26,813 nt of DNA. Origin: a virus. Below are positions 15,274 to 26,141 of this stretch, one piece after another. The stretch is from IMG/VR virus record IMGVR_UViG_3300020055_000128, positions 1 to 26,813 of that record; one strand, given 5' to 3'. Each line of letters begins with the position of its first letter. Within the stretch, counting starts at the first letter, position 1. The notes under the pieces are model-generated. The model had not been told where the DNA came from. It saw only the letters and a program-made list of their open reading frames with translations, and made no database searches. The translations under genes were made by a program, and so were the position numbers.

Positions 15274-15299
15274 AAAAAAAGCCCCCAATGAAGGGGGCT
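15274..15299. terminator. Convergent hairpin terminator between late and early blocks
   Basis: A seven-pair GC-rich stem (AGCCCCC at 15280-15286 with GGGGGCT at 15293-15299, loop AATGAA) sits just after the + strand stop. Seven As precede it, so - strand transcripts read the stem followed by seven Us: a canonical intrinsic terminator for the replication operon. The same hairpin, with a weaker downstream T tract, may also stop + strand transcription. Confidence 0.85.
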
Positions 15300-22415: not shown

Positions 22416-23101
22416 CACCGCCTCCCATTATGTGGACATTCCAATACTATACAATGCGCACGACATAACCCTGTTGGGCGTGGGTTCCATACATCATTTT
22501 CGTACGCTTTCTCCATCTTACCGTACTCGGCTAACCATTTCTGCCATAACGTAGGTTCTTGATTTACTTCATATAAATCTTTCACAAACGCGTTACAGAC
22601 AACAAACAAAAGCCCTGCTTTTACGGTATGTATTTCTGGGAAGTGCTTGAAGATACATAACGCCATCAGTTCAAGCTGTCCCTTATCTGCATACTTAGCA
22701 GACTTACCTGTCTTGTAGTCTATAACCCTAGCCGTACCCGCTTCCCTGTCTAGTATGGCTAAGTCCACTACACCTCTAAACCACACGTTGTCATCGAAAA
22801 AGCCACAAGGATCGAGATTAGATGTAAGCCCCATCCTGTGTTCGCACAACTTCTCACCCTTCATACTAATTAGCTTATCTAATGCAGTCTGAGCATAGTC
22901 AAAGCGTGGGTCTAACTGTTCTACTACACCGCTAACATAATCTTCAGCAGCTTTGTGAAACTCGTTTCCATAAAGTATGGCTTCGGTATTGAAGTCTTCT
23001 TCGTAATCCTTAGCAACTTTAATGTGGTAATACTTCTTCGGGCACTGGTCAAAAGTTTTTATGCTACTGAAAGACCAAGCGGGTTTGTTTGGGGTTGCCA
23101 T
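22415..23101 (-). CDS. Cas4/RecB-like PD-(D/E)XK exonuclease with probable Fe-S cysteines
   Basis: This 228-residue protein has SFSSIKTFDQCPKKYY at the N terminus, the usual RecB/Cas4 opening with Cys20. The catalytic residues are Asp113 (GVVDLAIL), Asp128 and Lys130 (IDYKTGK), followed by GQLELMAL. Three cysteines near the C terminus (Cys213, Cys217, Cys222, ending ECPHNGRR) with Cys20 could hold a 4Fe-4S cluster as in Cas4 and AddB. The spacing (C-x3-C-x4-C) is not the classic Cas4 pattern. It probably processes DNA ends during replication or recombination. No CRISPR genes are nearby. Its first 43 bases overlap the polymerase gene. Confidence 0.85.
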   Translation of the reverse strand: MATPNKPAWSFSSIKTFDQCPKKYYHIKVAKDYEEDFNTEAILYGNEFHKAAEDYVSGVVEQLDPRFDYAQTALDKLISMKGEKLCEHRMGLTSNLDPCGFFDDNVWFRGVVDLAILDREAGTARVIDYKTGKSAKYADKGQLELMALCIFKHFPEIHTVKAGLLFVVCNAFVKDLYEVNQEPTLWQKWLAEYGKMEKAYENDVWNPRPTGLCRAHCIVLECPHNGRR

Positions 23102-24933
23102 AACTTGCAGTTTCCGTAATCTTTGCCAACTTCAACGTCACCACAAACGGGTAAGCCTTCTGCCCATTCCGGTACGTATGCCATACACTCACCAACGTAG
23201 CGAGCAGCTTCGTCGACTTCAGTGTCCTTCACACAGCATACCACAGAATCGTGTACTGTAAGTGCTATAGGGTATCTTTCTGATATTTTTAGCATCTGTT
23301 CTGCCATCACACAACGAGCGATACCCTGACATACATTTTCTATAACCTTACCACCGTATATTTTTACCCGCCCCATGCGAGTCTTGTAAGAAAACTGTAA
23401 GCCCTTCTCTTCTTCCTCACCATCTAAGTCTTCGTACCTCATTAACAGACCAGATGGTAATCTTATAGCAACGTCTTTGTGCAACACACCTAACACGCCC
23501 GCCCTGCCAAACGCTATGCTCTCTTTCTGGTGCATGCCTATGAGACAAGCCTGTGCATCACGCCATAGCTGAGTAATCTGACTGTTGGCTTCTCGGTATA
23601 CTCGGATAATCCTACGACATTCTTCTTCGGATACATCGACACCGAACGTCTTTAACTGTTCACGAAACCGGACTGCACCCATACCGTACCCTGCCCCAAG
23701 GATTGTGGTCTTACCTATGAAGCGTTCTTCGGACGTTACTTCGTCTTCCTTCTTGTTGTATATAATAGAAGCCATCTTTTTGTATACATCTTCGCCTTTC
23801 TCAAATGACTTCACTAGATTGTTCTGCTCTGCTAACCACGCAAGCACACGAGCTTCGATCTGCGCAGAGTCGGATTCGATTAAGGTATAGCCTTCGGGCG
23901 CACGAATACAGGACTTGAGTACCTTGGCATTCTGACCGCGAGACGGTAAGTTCTGTAAGTTCACCTTATCTAACCCACCCCACCTTCCGGTGTGAGCCGC
24001 GTAGTAGCGTATAGGCACAGGTAATTTGCCGCGCATAGCTATGTCAATAAACCTTTGTGTACGCGTTTCCTCAAGTGTACTTTTTAAACCTACCCGTGCT
24101 GCTACTAGAGCCTGTACTCTTGGGTCTTCGTGTTCTTGCAGTTCCTTGAATGCTTCGTCGCTCTTGGCGAATGCAAAGGTTTCTTTGCCTGTACGTAAGG
24201 ATATTTTAGTGGGGGGTTCCACACCTAGGTTAGTCAGAGCATCTGCAAACTTAGGGTTAGACATGAGTTCGTCTTTCTCTATGCCACATTGTTCCAGCAG
24301 GTTATCCTTCTGTTGCTTAAGTGTGAGAATGTGTTTTTGTAACTTAGGTAAGTCCAGCTCAAGCTGGGCGTTGGTATACATCTTCAAAGTCATGTCTATA
24401 ACTTTGAGTTCTTTCTTCGGGAAGCCTTTGTCCATGAATATGCCGAACAGCTTGTAGGTAAGCTCGACATCGTTGATACAGTAGTCGCCGTATCGGGATA
24501 GTTCGTCAGCAGTAAAGTCAGCGCGTCGTTTGCCTAGGGCGTTTATTACCTCGTCGCCTTTCTGCCCGACGTTGTACATCTCACTAACTTTTCGCAGAGA
24601 TGCAGACACTTCGACACCGTGCATCCCCCTAGCCATACACATAGTATCAAGCCATAACTTAGGGTGTATATCAAAAAGCCAAGAGAGAATAGCACCATCG
24701 AACATAGTGTTATGAGCAAGTACCGCAGAGTTTGCCCAATCGTAGTTGTCATGTAAGTAGTTTTTGATCGCATCGAAACTCCCACTCAACCATATTGTAT
24801 CTTCATCATTCGCTTTTATGCCCACACCTATAACTTCAAAGTCTGGGCTACGAACGTATTCCTCTGTAGTTATCTTAGACAAACTAAACTGTTTGTCATA
24901 ATACGTTTCAAAATCTATTGTTATTATGTTCAT
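23059..24933 (-). CDS. polA: DNA polymerase, family A, with 3'-5' proofreading exonuclease
   Basis: This 624-residue enzyme is the likely phage replicase. The exonuclease motifs are Asp7/Glu9 (TIDFETYYD), LAHNTMFDG, and YGDYCINDVELTY. The polymerase motifs are motif A (ESDSAQIEARVLAW, Asp355), motif B (RFIGKTTILGAGYGMGA: Arg404, Lys408, Tyr416) and motif C (LTVHDSVVC, His561/Asp562). The residue equivalent to E. coli Pol I Phe762 is Leu412. There is no 5' nuclease domain, which is normal for phages. The ATG overlaps the stop of the upstream 72-residue gene by four bases, and the 3' end overlaps the Cas4-like gene. Confidence 0.95.
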   Translation of the reverse strand: MNIITIDFETYYDKQFSLSKITTEEYVRSPDFEVIGVGIKANDEDTIWLSGSFDAIKNYLHDNYDWANSAVLAHNTMFDGAILSWLFDIHPKLWLDTMCMARGMHGVEVSASLRKVSEMYNVGQKGDEVINALGKRRADFTADELSRYGDYCINDVELTYKLFGIFMDKGFPKKELKVIDMTLKMYTNAQLELDLPKLQKHILTLKQQKDNLLEQCGIEKDELMSNPKFADALTNLGVEPPTKISLRTGKETFAFAKSDEAFKELQEHEDPRVQALVAARVGLKSTLEETRTQRFIDIAMRGKLPVPIRYYAAHTGRWGGLDKVNLQNLPSRGQNAKVLKSCIRAPEGYTLIESDSAQIEARVLAWLAEQNNLVKSFEKGEDVYKKMASIIYNKKEDEVTSEERFIGKTTILGAGYGMGAVRFREQLKTFGVDVSEEECRRIIRVYREANSQITQLWRDAQACLIGMHQKESIAFGRAGVLGVLHKDVAIRLPSGLLMRYEDLDGEEEEKGLQFSYKTRMGRVKIYGGKVIENVCQGIARCVMAEQMLKISERYPIALTVHDSVVCCVKDTEVDEAARYVGECMAYVPEWAEGLPVCGDVEVGKDYGNCKLWQPQTNPLGLSVA

Positions 24934-25148
24934 CTTACCACCGTTACATCTGCTTCAGTTTCTACCCACACCCTAGCACCACACGACAACGGCTTGTCAG
25001 GTGAGTATACCACTACACTTGGGCCATCTATCTGTACCTCGTTACACTTACGGTTCTGTTTGTAATCTTTAACGGTAAGTACAGGTAAGTCAGCACCCTT
25101 AGTGTTCGCTTTTATGTTGTGTTGGTTTACGTGTATTCGCGTTTTCAT
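24930..25148 (-). CDS. Small conserved phage protein ahead of DNA polymerase
   Basis: This protein has 72 residues. MKTRIHVNQHNIKANTKG, PVLTVKDYKQNRKCNEVQI and KPLSCGARVWVETEADVTV suggest a small all-beta protein. I recall similar sequences in many phages and some bacteria without a known function. Four-base overlaps on both sides couple it to the 106-residue gene and to the polymerase, hinting at a role connected with replication. That is inference from position only. Confidence 0.75.
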   Translation of the reverse strand: MKTRIHVNQHNIKANTKGADLPVLTVKDYKQNRKCNEVQIDGPSVVVYSPDKPLSCGARVWVETEADVTVVR

Positions 25149-25465
25149 TCAGAAAACCCCAAGAATTTTTTCCATGCCGTATCATTTATTTCCCAAATAT
25201 CGCTGTCTGGTTCAAACTCGGAAAACTCTCCACATATTTCGTCGATTTCTCTGGTTTCGGCACGTTCCCACCAATCTTCTTGGGAGTTATACTCATAAGG
25301 TATACAAAAACTCATCTGTCGAGCTTTAGGTATTCTAATTACATCAGCAGAACAGGGGTCACCATACTGATCTATGTTGTCAAATATGTCTTCCCATGTA
25401 TGCCCTTCAGCAAAACCTACCCATGCTTTATCGCCTTCGGGTTTAAATCTAAATGCTACTCTCAT
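25145..25465 (-). CDS. Small conserved phage protein, function unknown
   Basis: This protein has 106 residues starting MRVAFRFKPEGDKAWVGFAE. A longer frame opens at 25492, but AAAGGAGA lies five bases before the ATG at 25465, so the shorter start is preferred. The protein is acidic, with many aromatics (EDWWERAETREIDEICGEFS, then WEINDTAWKKFLGF), and no motif is recognised. It is the first gene of the polymerase operon after the terminator at 25556-25584. Confidence 0.7.
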   Translation of the reverse strand: MRVAFRFKPEGDKAWVGFAEGHTWEDIFDNIDQYGDPCSADVIRIPKARQMSFCIPYEYNSQEDWWERAETREIDEICGEFSEFEPDSDIWEINDTAWKKFLGFSE

Positions 25466-25470
25466 ATCAT

Positions 25471-25478
25471 TCTCCTTT
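25471..25478 (-). promoter_or_regulatory. Ribosome binding site fixing the start at 25465
   Basis: AAAGGAGA on the - strand lies five bases before the ATG at 25465. The upstream in-frame ATG at 25492 has no comparable site, and it falls at the edge of a + strand promoter. Confidence 0.7.
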
Positions 25479-25485
25479 ATTTTTG

Positions 25486-25514
25486 TTGACACCTAAGTTA
25501 TTAAGTAATATATT
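25486..25514 (+). promoter_or_regulatory. Sigma70-like promoter on the + strand inside the - strand block
   Basis: TTGACA at 25486-25491, a 17-bp spacer, then TATATT at 25509-25514. The -35 is perfect, the -10 is five of six, and spacing is optimal. It points away from the polymerase operon towards a terminator only about 45 bp further on, with no + strand gene in between. Confidence 0.5.
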
Positions 25515-25520
25515 TTGTTT

Positions 25521-25584
25521 CGGTAACCAGAATCTCTGTGCTCAGAGTTCTAACTAAAAACCTCAGCTTCGGTTGGGGTTTTTT
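25521..25584 (+). ncRNA. Candidate small RNA of about 64 nt
   Basis: The promoter at 25486-25514 predicts a start near 25521. The transcript would form a first hairpin (AGAA-CTCTG at 25529-25538 with a bulged T, loop TGCT, then CAGAG-TTCT to 25551). A terminator hairpin with a UUCG loop and six Us follows. No ORF of useful length lies within it. Promoter, two hairpins and terminator in about 100 bp of otherwise gene-free sequence is the layout of a phage small RNA. The target is unknown, and transcription is not shown by sequence alone. Confidence 0.4.
25556..25584. terminator. Bidirectional terminator with UUCG tetraloop
   Basis: AACCTCAGC (25559-25567), TTCG loop, GTTGGGGTT (25572-25580): nine pairs including two G-U, closed by C-UUCG-G on the + strand RNA and followed by TTTTTT. 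Flanking A and T runs can extend the stem. On the - strand the same hairpin is followed by five Us and sits at the stop of the cell-wall hydrolase gene, so it also ends that transcript. Confidence 0.8.
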
Positions 25585-25987
25585 ATTGCCTGTAAAAAAC
25601 ATGATTGTTGACCTGTGTTGTTAATGTCATTGGTATAGACCATCTGGGTTTTACGGAAGTAGCATGGTAATGCGTTGCGCCTTCTGTAGTATCAGGTAGC
25701 CACCCCATATACACTGTACCCGCATATATAAACGCAGTACCCCAAGCGTCAGGATTAGCTATCACTTCGGGTCTGCCATCGCACCAGAAACTAAACTGGC
25801 ACTTATGTCTTATGGGTACGTGTTTCCAGTACCTACCTTGCTTGACTACATCACAAACAGTATTCGGGTACTCTTCACTTTCCACGCGGTTCATCACCAC
25901 TTGAGCTACTGCAATCTGCCCTTCTACGGGTTCGCCTCGTGCTTCAAAGTATATTGCCATCGTTAGGCACATAACTGCTTCTAGCAT
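25583..25987 (-). CDS. SleB-type cell-wall hydrolase
   Basis: This protein has 134 residues when started at the ATG at 25987, which has GGAGG seven bases upstream; the longer frame from 26011 lacks such a site. It matches the Hydrolase_2 (SleB) pattern: [20 protein letters not shown] with catalytic Glu15, [43 protein letters not shown] and NNHVFYRQ. The family cleaves peptidoglycan. There is no signal peptide. It is the second peptidoglycan hydrolase in the window and lies in the early block, not the lysis cassette. The start overlaps the zinc-ribbon gene. Confidence 0.88.
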
Positions 25988-26141
25988 TGTTCGGCCTCCA
26001 AACTCGTTCACGCCCTATCGCCTTGGTAAACCCTCGGCATTCAGGACAGTACCACCCCACTCGTGTGTTCTTCTCTGGGTTGATTACTTCTTCGCGCTTT
26101 TCCCCGCATTCGCAAGGGATTGTTTCCATCGTGTCGGTCAT
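25944..26141 (-). CDS. Small zinc-ribbon protein
   Basis: This 65-residue protein has two CxxC-type knuckles: Cys10-x-Cys12 ([10 protein letters not shown]) and [10 protein letters not shown], which together can bind one zinc ion. The C terminus is basic and polar ([14 protein letters not shown]). Its ATG overlaps the TAA of the acetyltransferase gene, and its end overlaps the start of the SleB-type gene by 44 bases. Small zinc ribbons of phages often bind nucleic acid or RNA polymerase; the function here is unknown. Confidence 0.75.
25995..25999 (-). promoter_or_regulatory. Ribosome binding site fixing the SleB-type start at 25987
   Basis: GGAGG on the - strand lies seven bases before the ATG at 25987. 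This supports the 134-residue form beginning [10 protein letters not shown] over the eight-residue longer frame. Confidence 0.65.

Follow-up and report, generated by a model that had tools for sequence, protein, structure and literature searches.

In phage lambda, the OOP RNA and cII overlap by 52 bases (PMC5869508), and an antisense RNA of the endolysin gene, PAK_P4as15, has been reported in the lytic Pseudomonas phage PAK_P4 (PMC12197685). Here, a promoter-hairpin-terminator unit was analyzed in a 26.8-kb fragment of an uncultured phage; the whole of this stretch is referred to as the window. Small RNAs of uncultured lytic phages are, to our knowledge, almost never annotated. The present candidate small-RNA gene was detected from DNA alone, it is apparently under selection, and natural relatives without it exist.

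Structural genes occupy the + strand of the window up to about 15.3 kb. The - strand carries a long operon encoding a DUF927 primase/helicase-like protein, an SNF2-type helicase, a PD-(D/E)XK nuclease, a family A DNA polymerase and several small proteins, with a cell-wall hydrolase gene upstream of the replication genes. A strong intrinsic terminator (15280-15299, - strand, AGCCCCC/GGGGGCT followed by a T-run) is located in the convergent gap between the structural and the replication genes. The named phages nearest to the window showed only 30-39% protein identity. The polymerase was closest to those of KPP25-like Pseudomonas phages and Rhizobium phages, and a structural protein to those of phage DSL-LC04 and of Roseobacter and Pelagibacter phages. 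The sample numbers of the nearest contigs suggest coastal salt marsh as the source.

The unit is located on the strand opposite to the operon, in the gap between the hydrolase stop codon and the ATG of a 106-aa gene (Table 1). The hydrolase gene probably starts at an internal ATG, and its stop codon (25583-25585) overlaps the end of the T-run of the unit. In the relative L172 the - strand genes extend more than 5 kb further upstream, and the 106-aa gene is therefore not the first gene of the operon. The sequence-only reading had placed the unit at the head of the polymerase operon, with the first ribosome site 20 bp behind the promoter. Both statements had to be revised: the unit is found in the middle of the operon, where the hydrolase gene ends, and the ribosome site is only 7 bp from the -35 box.

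Table 1. Positions of the small-RNA unit and its neighbours in the window
Feature	Position	Strand	Remarks
-35 hexamer TTGACA	25486..25491	+	identical in L041 and L074/L063
-10 hexamer TATATT	25509..25514	+	17-bp spacer
Predicted small RNA, ~63 nt	25522..25584	+	start predicted from -10 box, end from T-run
Hairpin 1, AGAA-(U bulge)-CUCUG / UGCU loop / CAGAG-UUCU	25529..25551	+	sequence variable, fold kept
Intrinsic terminator, 12-pair stem	25556..25583	+	UUCG tetraloop 25568-25571; near-invariant in variants
Cell-wall hydrolase / endolysin-like gene	25583..26011	-	PF07486; PHROGs: endolysin; convergent with RNA
106-aa gene, function unassigned	25145..25465	-	behind promoter; ATG 25465, AAAGGAG 25472-25478
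Family A DNA polymerase	23059..24933	-	further down the same operon

TTGACA-17-TATATT was the only sigma-70-type site with 11 of 12 consensus positions in the window, in agreement with the near-consensus promoter of 17-bp spacing proposed earlier. Three sites reached at least 10/12, whereas second-order Markov copies of the window had 8.15 +/- 2.9, and at a spacing of 17 bp the copies had 0.13 sites matching 11/12 or better. Sigma-70-like promoters were depleted outside the unit, and the first 20 kb had 19 sites at 9/12 or better where 30 were expected. No convincing - strand promoter was found in the gap by the promoter scan. One - strand candidate was a 9/12 site inside the hydrolase gene (25630-25601), the hexamers of which are not kept in L041.

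Folding of positions 25520-25587 resulted in two hairpins with a free energy of -23.0 kcal/mol (z = -4.4), and none of 200 shuffled sequences was as stable. The second hairpin is a UUCG terminator followed by a run of six T's (25579-25584), so that the two hairpins described in the sequence-only reading were confirmed. Its transcript of about 64 nt was right in size and is corrected to a predicted 63 nt or so. The UUCG terminator was missed by a standard terminator scan and was detected by a purpose-made scan. The window contained one promoter of at least 11/12 with a terminator within about 130 nt, a combination absent from all 300 Markov copies; at 10/12 the scan gave one case in the 300 copies. 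In 1.29 Mb of partly redundant phage DNA, the scan returned this unit, a further family (described next) and two weak cases at 10/12.

A second promoter-hairpin-terminator unit was observed in another marine phage group (L182 3192-3300, + strand; L183 1497, + strand; L184-L190). It consists of TTGACA-18-TATAAT, a hairpin, UGUGUUAACAACACA or UGUGGUCAAACACA, a variable linker and a strong terminator, and is followed by an inverted repeat, TTACATAAGTATAC ... GTATACTTATGTAA. The phages carrying it have a related hydrolase gene, and the unit precedes a terminase-small-like gene.

Relatives of the window were found by pattern and protein scans of IMG/VR. The unit was present in four further contigs, L075, L041, L074 and L063. 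The L075 unit is identical to that of the window, L041 and L074/L063 represent two independent variants, and only three distinct variants (window, L041, L074/L063) are known. Both hexamers were identical at 12 of 12 positions across all variants, and the spacer at 12 of 17 between the window and L041. Invariant hexamers around a diverged spacer within the unit speak for selection on a predicted promoter. The linker and terminator were identical at 33 of 35 positions in the same pair. Over the whole unit 87 of 103 positions were identical, compared to 19 of 47 fourfold-degenerate sites in the adjacent hydrolase gene (Fisher p ~1e-7), a comparison of rates that would be weakened by recombination, by which the unit may have been exchanged. 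Between L041 and L074, identity was 14/24 in hairpin 1, 77/79 in the rest of the unit and 46/57 at the fourfold sites, and the faster change of hairpin 1 relative to the fourfold sites was borderline (p = 0.052). Several IMG/VR contigs are broken in or beside the unit (the end of L063 and the starts of L008, L009 and L005), as expected if the unit is a conserved island between variable neighbours.

Hairpin 1 reads AGAA(U)CUCUG/CAGAGUUCU in the window, AGGAU(U)UCUG/CAGA(U)GUUCU in L041 and GGGUAU(C)UGU/GCAAUACCU in L074. The sequence is altered on both arms, and in all three variants it folds, better on the + strand than on the - strand. A covariation check in relatives had been suggested; the fold itself is conserved in the three variants, but column-by-column covariation is weak and, with three variants, not demonstrable. 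The small-RNA reading had been made dependent on more than the terminator surviving in relatives, and the promoter, the fold of hairpin 1 and the terminator all survive in both independent variants.

On the + strand, 8, 12 and 9 of 500 shuffled sequences were as stable as hairpin 1 of the window, L041 and L074, respectively. The corresponding counts on the - strand were 14, 144 and 123 of 500. Furthermore, lineage-specific G-U pairs are present in the hairpin of L041 (two), in the hairpin of L074 (two) and in the terminator of the window (one), and these are A-C mismatches on the - strand. The advantage of the + strand fold, together with the G-U pairs, indicates that it is the + strand RNA that is maintained. 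No conserved open reading frame was found in the RNA across the variants, and a leader peptide or small protein was rejected because no frame is kept among them. The unit combines the features expected of a small-RNA gene, namely its own promoter, an intrinsic terminator within about 100 nt, a conserved structure and the lack of conserved coding sequence. Judged from these sequence features, it is very probably a real, selected small-RNA gene with its own promoter and terminator.

The terminator is the best conserved part of the unit, and in L041 and L074 it also forms a fair stem on the - strand. It could be that the terminator alone matters by insulating the hydrolase gene from its neighbours, and that the promoter and hairpin 1 are present by chance. 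This was considered improbable, as both hexamers are invariant at constant spacing despite the divergence of the spacer, and an 11/12 promoter with a downstream terminator did not arise in any of the 300 simulations. In addition, a C to U change in the stem of the window preserves pairing on the + strand only, and phages without the unit have no terminator at this position.

The arrangement in relatives without the unit was informative. In L084/L087, 12 nt separate the hydrolase stop codon from the polymerase start codon. In L010, a contig holding just the last few hydrolase codons, the stop codon lies directly before the ribosome site of a homologue of the 106-aa gene. The unit can therefore be described as an accessory cassette, made up of promoter, RNA and terminator, which sits at the hydrolase 3' end. 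The 106-aa gene is present in L041. In L074 the unit is found at the same hydrolase end with a different gene behind the promoter and with the polymerase gene on the other side, which shows that the unit goes with the hydrolase 3' end and not with the polymerase genes. The unit is not a leader of the gene behind its promoter. A mobile "RNA moron" would be a cassette that enters genomes at the hydrolase 3' end, and its hairpin would diversify fast with the fold kept, so that each RNA recognises only the mRNA of its own operon. Such behaviour would resemble the incompatibility types of plasmid antisense RNAs, and we regard it as unlikely.

The location of the unit among replication genes raises the question of whether + strand transcription itself is functional, either by priming or transcriptionally activating a replication origin close to the polymerase gene or by collision with the RNA polymerase transcribing the operon. 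The pO promoter of OOP has been reported to be important in lambda replication (PMC12197685). However, no iteron-type repeats were found around the unit, the skew does not turn at the unit, and relatives with the same polymerase lack it. A function of this kind was accordingly given little credence.

Full-length, near-threshold matches to Proteo-phage-1 (RF03044), a phage sRNA family of Rfam, were observed in L172 (9018-9101, - strand) and L173 (15033-15116, - strand), with scores of 40.3 and 38.5 bits against a cut-off of 42. The matches belong to the L041 and L074 contigs and are located 1.3-2.6 kb upstream of the small-RNA unit in the same operon. The window position matching the site in L041 would fall beyond the end of the window.

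A free-standing small-RNA gene acting as an OOP-like cis-antisense RNA is our preferred explanation, tentative when taken as a whole and with its mechanism included. The small RNA would be transcribed by the host sigma-70 RNA polymerase against the - strand operon, and its own terminator would end it precisely where the hydrolase gene ends. The mRNA of the operon (hydrolase, 106-aa gene, ..., polymerase) would cross the gap and carry a perfect complement of the whole RNA. Crossing is required because no convincing - strand promoter was found in the gap and because genes continue more than 5 kb upstream in L172. Pairing may cut or destabilise the mRNA at the junction of the lysis-type gene with the genes that lie downstream, and the ratio or timing of these genes would thereby be adjusted. 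A kept structure with a free hairpin 1 sequence is to be expected of an RNA whose partner is its own complement, because no outside seed would have to be kept. Like OOP, the predicted RNA is opposite to an operon and has its own promoter and terminator; the substantial overlap with a coding end that characterizes an OOP-like RNA is absent, as just 2-3 nt of the hydrolase gene are overlapped. Pairing would therefore be almost wholly intercistronic. The earlier statement that the transcript enters no neighbour holds for the genes, apart from these 2-3 nt at the hydrolase stop. Any mRNA crossing the gap, however, contains an intercistronic stretch to which the RNA is exactly complementary. If the RNA acts as a cis-antisense RNA, it would link the expression of a lysis gene to that of replication genes in an environmental podovirus-like group.

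An RNA acting in trans through short seeds is nearly as likely as a cis-antisense RNA. It is possible, if doubtful, that the unit encodes a trans-acting and perhaps Hfq-dependent RNA pairing with host or distant phage mRNAs, like PreS and VpdS. Such RNAs typically have a stand-alone promoter, a small stem-loop, an A-rich linker and a U-rich terminator tail, as the unit does, the invariant short motifs AA[CU]CAG, UCUGU and ACUAAAAACC are candidate seeds, and examples in phages have been reported (PMC12197685). Against this, the most exposed parts of the RNA, the 5' end and hairpin 1, are the most variable. Regulation of host or phage mRNAs in trans, as suggested in the sequence-only reading, has so far received no support, and the phage start regions in the window bound the RNA no better than shuffled RNA (minimum -20.2, shuffled mean minimum -22.6, p = 0.83). 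The variable hairpin between invariant ends makes the choice between action in cis and in trans directly testable.

No Rfam 15 family scored above its gathering score for the unit, and a distant blastn search of the region against phage records gave no match. A covariance model of our own, R1, used to look for bacterial homologues, gave two matches in 398 bacterial genomes (48 and 42 bits), both of which were terminators behind ribosomal-protein genes. R1 scores below about 50 bits were therefore regarded as meaningless; matches in L136, L139 and L141 (22-27 bits) were dropped as evidence of homology, and only matches above 100 bits were used. A search of bacterial and archaeal genomes with the promoter-core pattern gave four matches without a -35 box or terminator, which were ascribed to chance. 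One of these ribosomal-protein terminators (L198) is of the same CCCAGC-UUCG type as that of the unit and, together with the similarity to DSL-LC04, weakly hints at a gammaproteobacterial host.

That the phage had captured a host small RNA of the Pseudomonas ErsA family (Pseudomon-1) was suggested by the end-to-end alignment of RF01719 at the unit in L165 (29.1 bits, E 0.011) and L166 (25.4 bits), and by the arrangement of one hairpin followed by a terminator in both RNAs. These scores are far below the gathering score of 50, the promoter is treated as RNA in the alignment, and the copy in the window gave no match. The true ErsA copies used for comparison have a different, C-rich terminator loop, which is missing from the unit. 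Membership was rejected on these grounds, and such an origin is extremely improbable.

Among the known systems, the unit resembles in layout lambda OOP, a short RNA with its own promoter, opposite to an operon and just before the replication genes, which is stopped by an intrinsic terminator where the upstream gene ends (PMC5869508); the likeness is one of layout, and a sequence relation is not claimed. OOP differs in its 52-base overlap with cII, where the overlap here is 2-3 nt and the upstream gene encodes a cell-wall hydrolase. PAK_P4as15 is likewise an RNA of a lytic phage tied to an endolysin gene, and a close relative of the phage that carries it lacks it (PMC12197685), but it is described as antisense to the endolysin gene, whereas the RNA predicted here ends at the end of the gene. 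PreS of lambda and VpdS of VP882 are small phage RNAs with a terminator and U-tail anatomy compatible with the unit. Both are Hfq-dependent; for the unit, Hfq binding and targets in trans are candidate features only, and it has no sequence match in Rfam. ErsA shares the hairpin followed by a terminator and aligns weakly from end to end. It differs in score (25-29 against the cut-off of 50), in its C-rich loop, in its promoter class and in its polA-engB locus in Pseudomonas. As a very probable phage small-RNA gene, the unit is unusual in combining invariant control elements with a variable hairpin.
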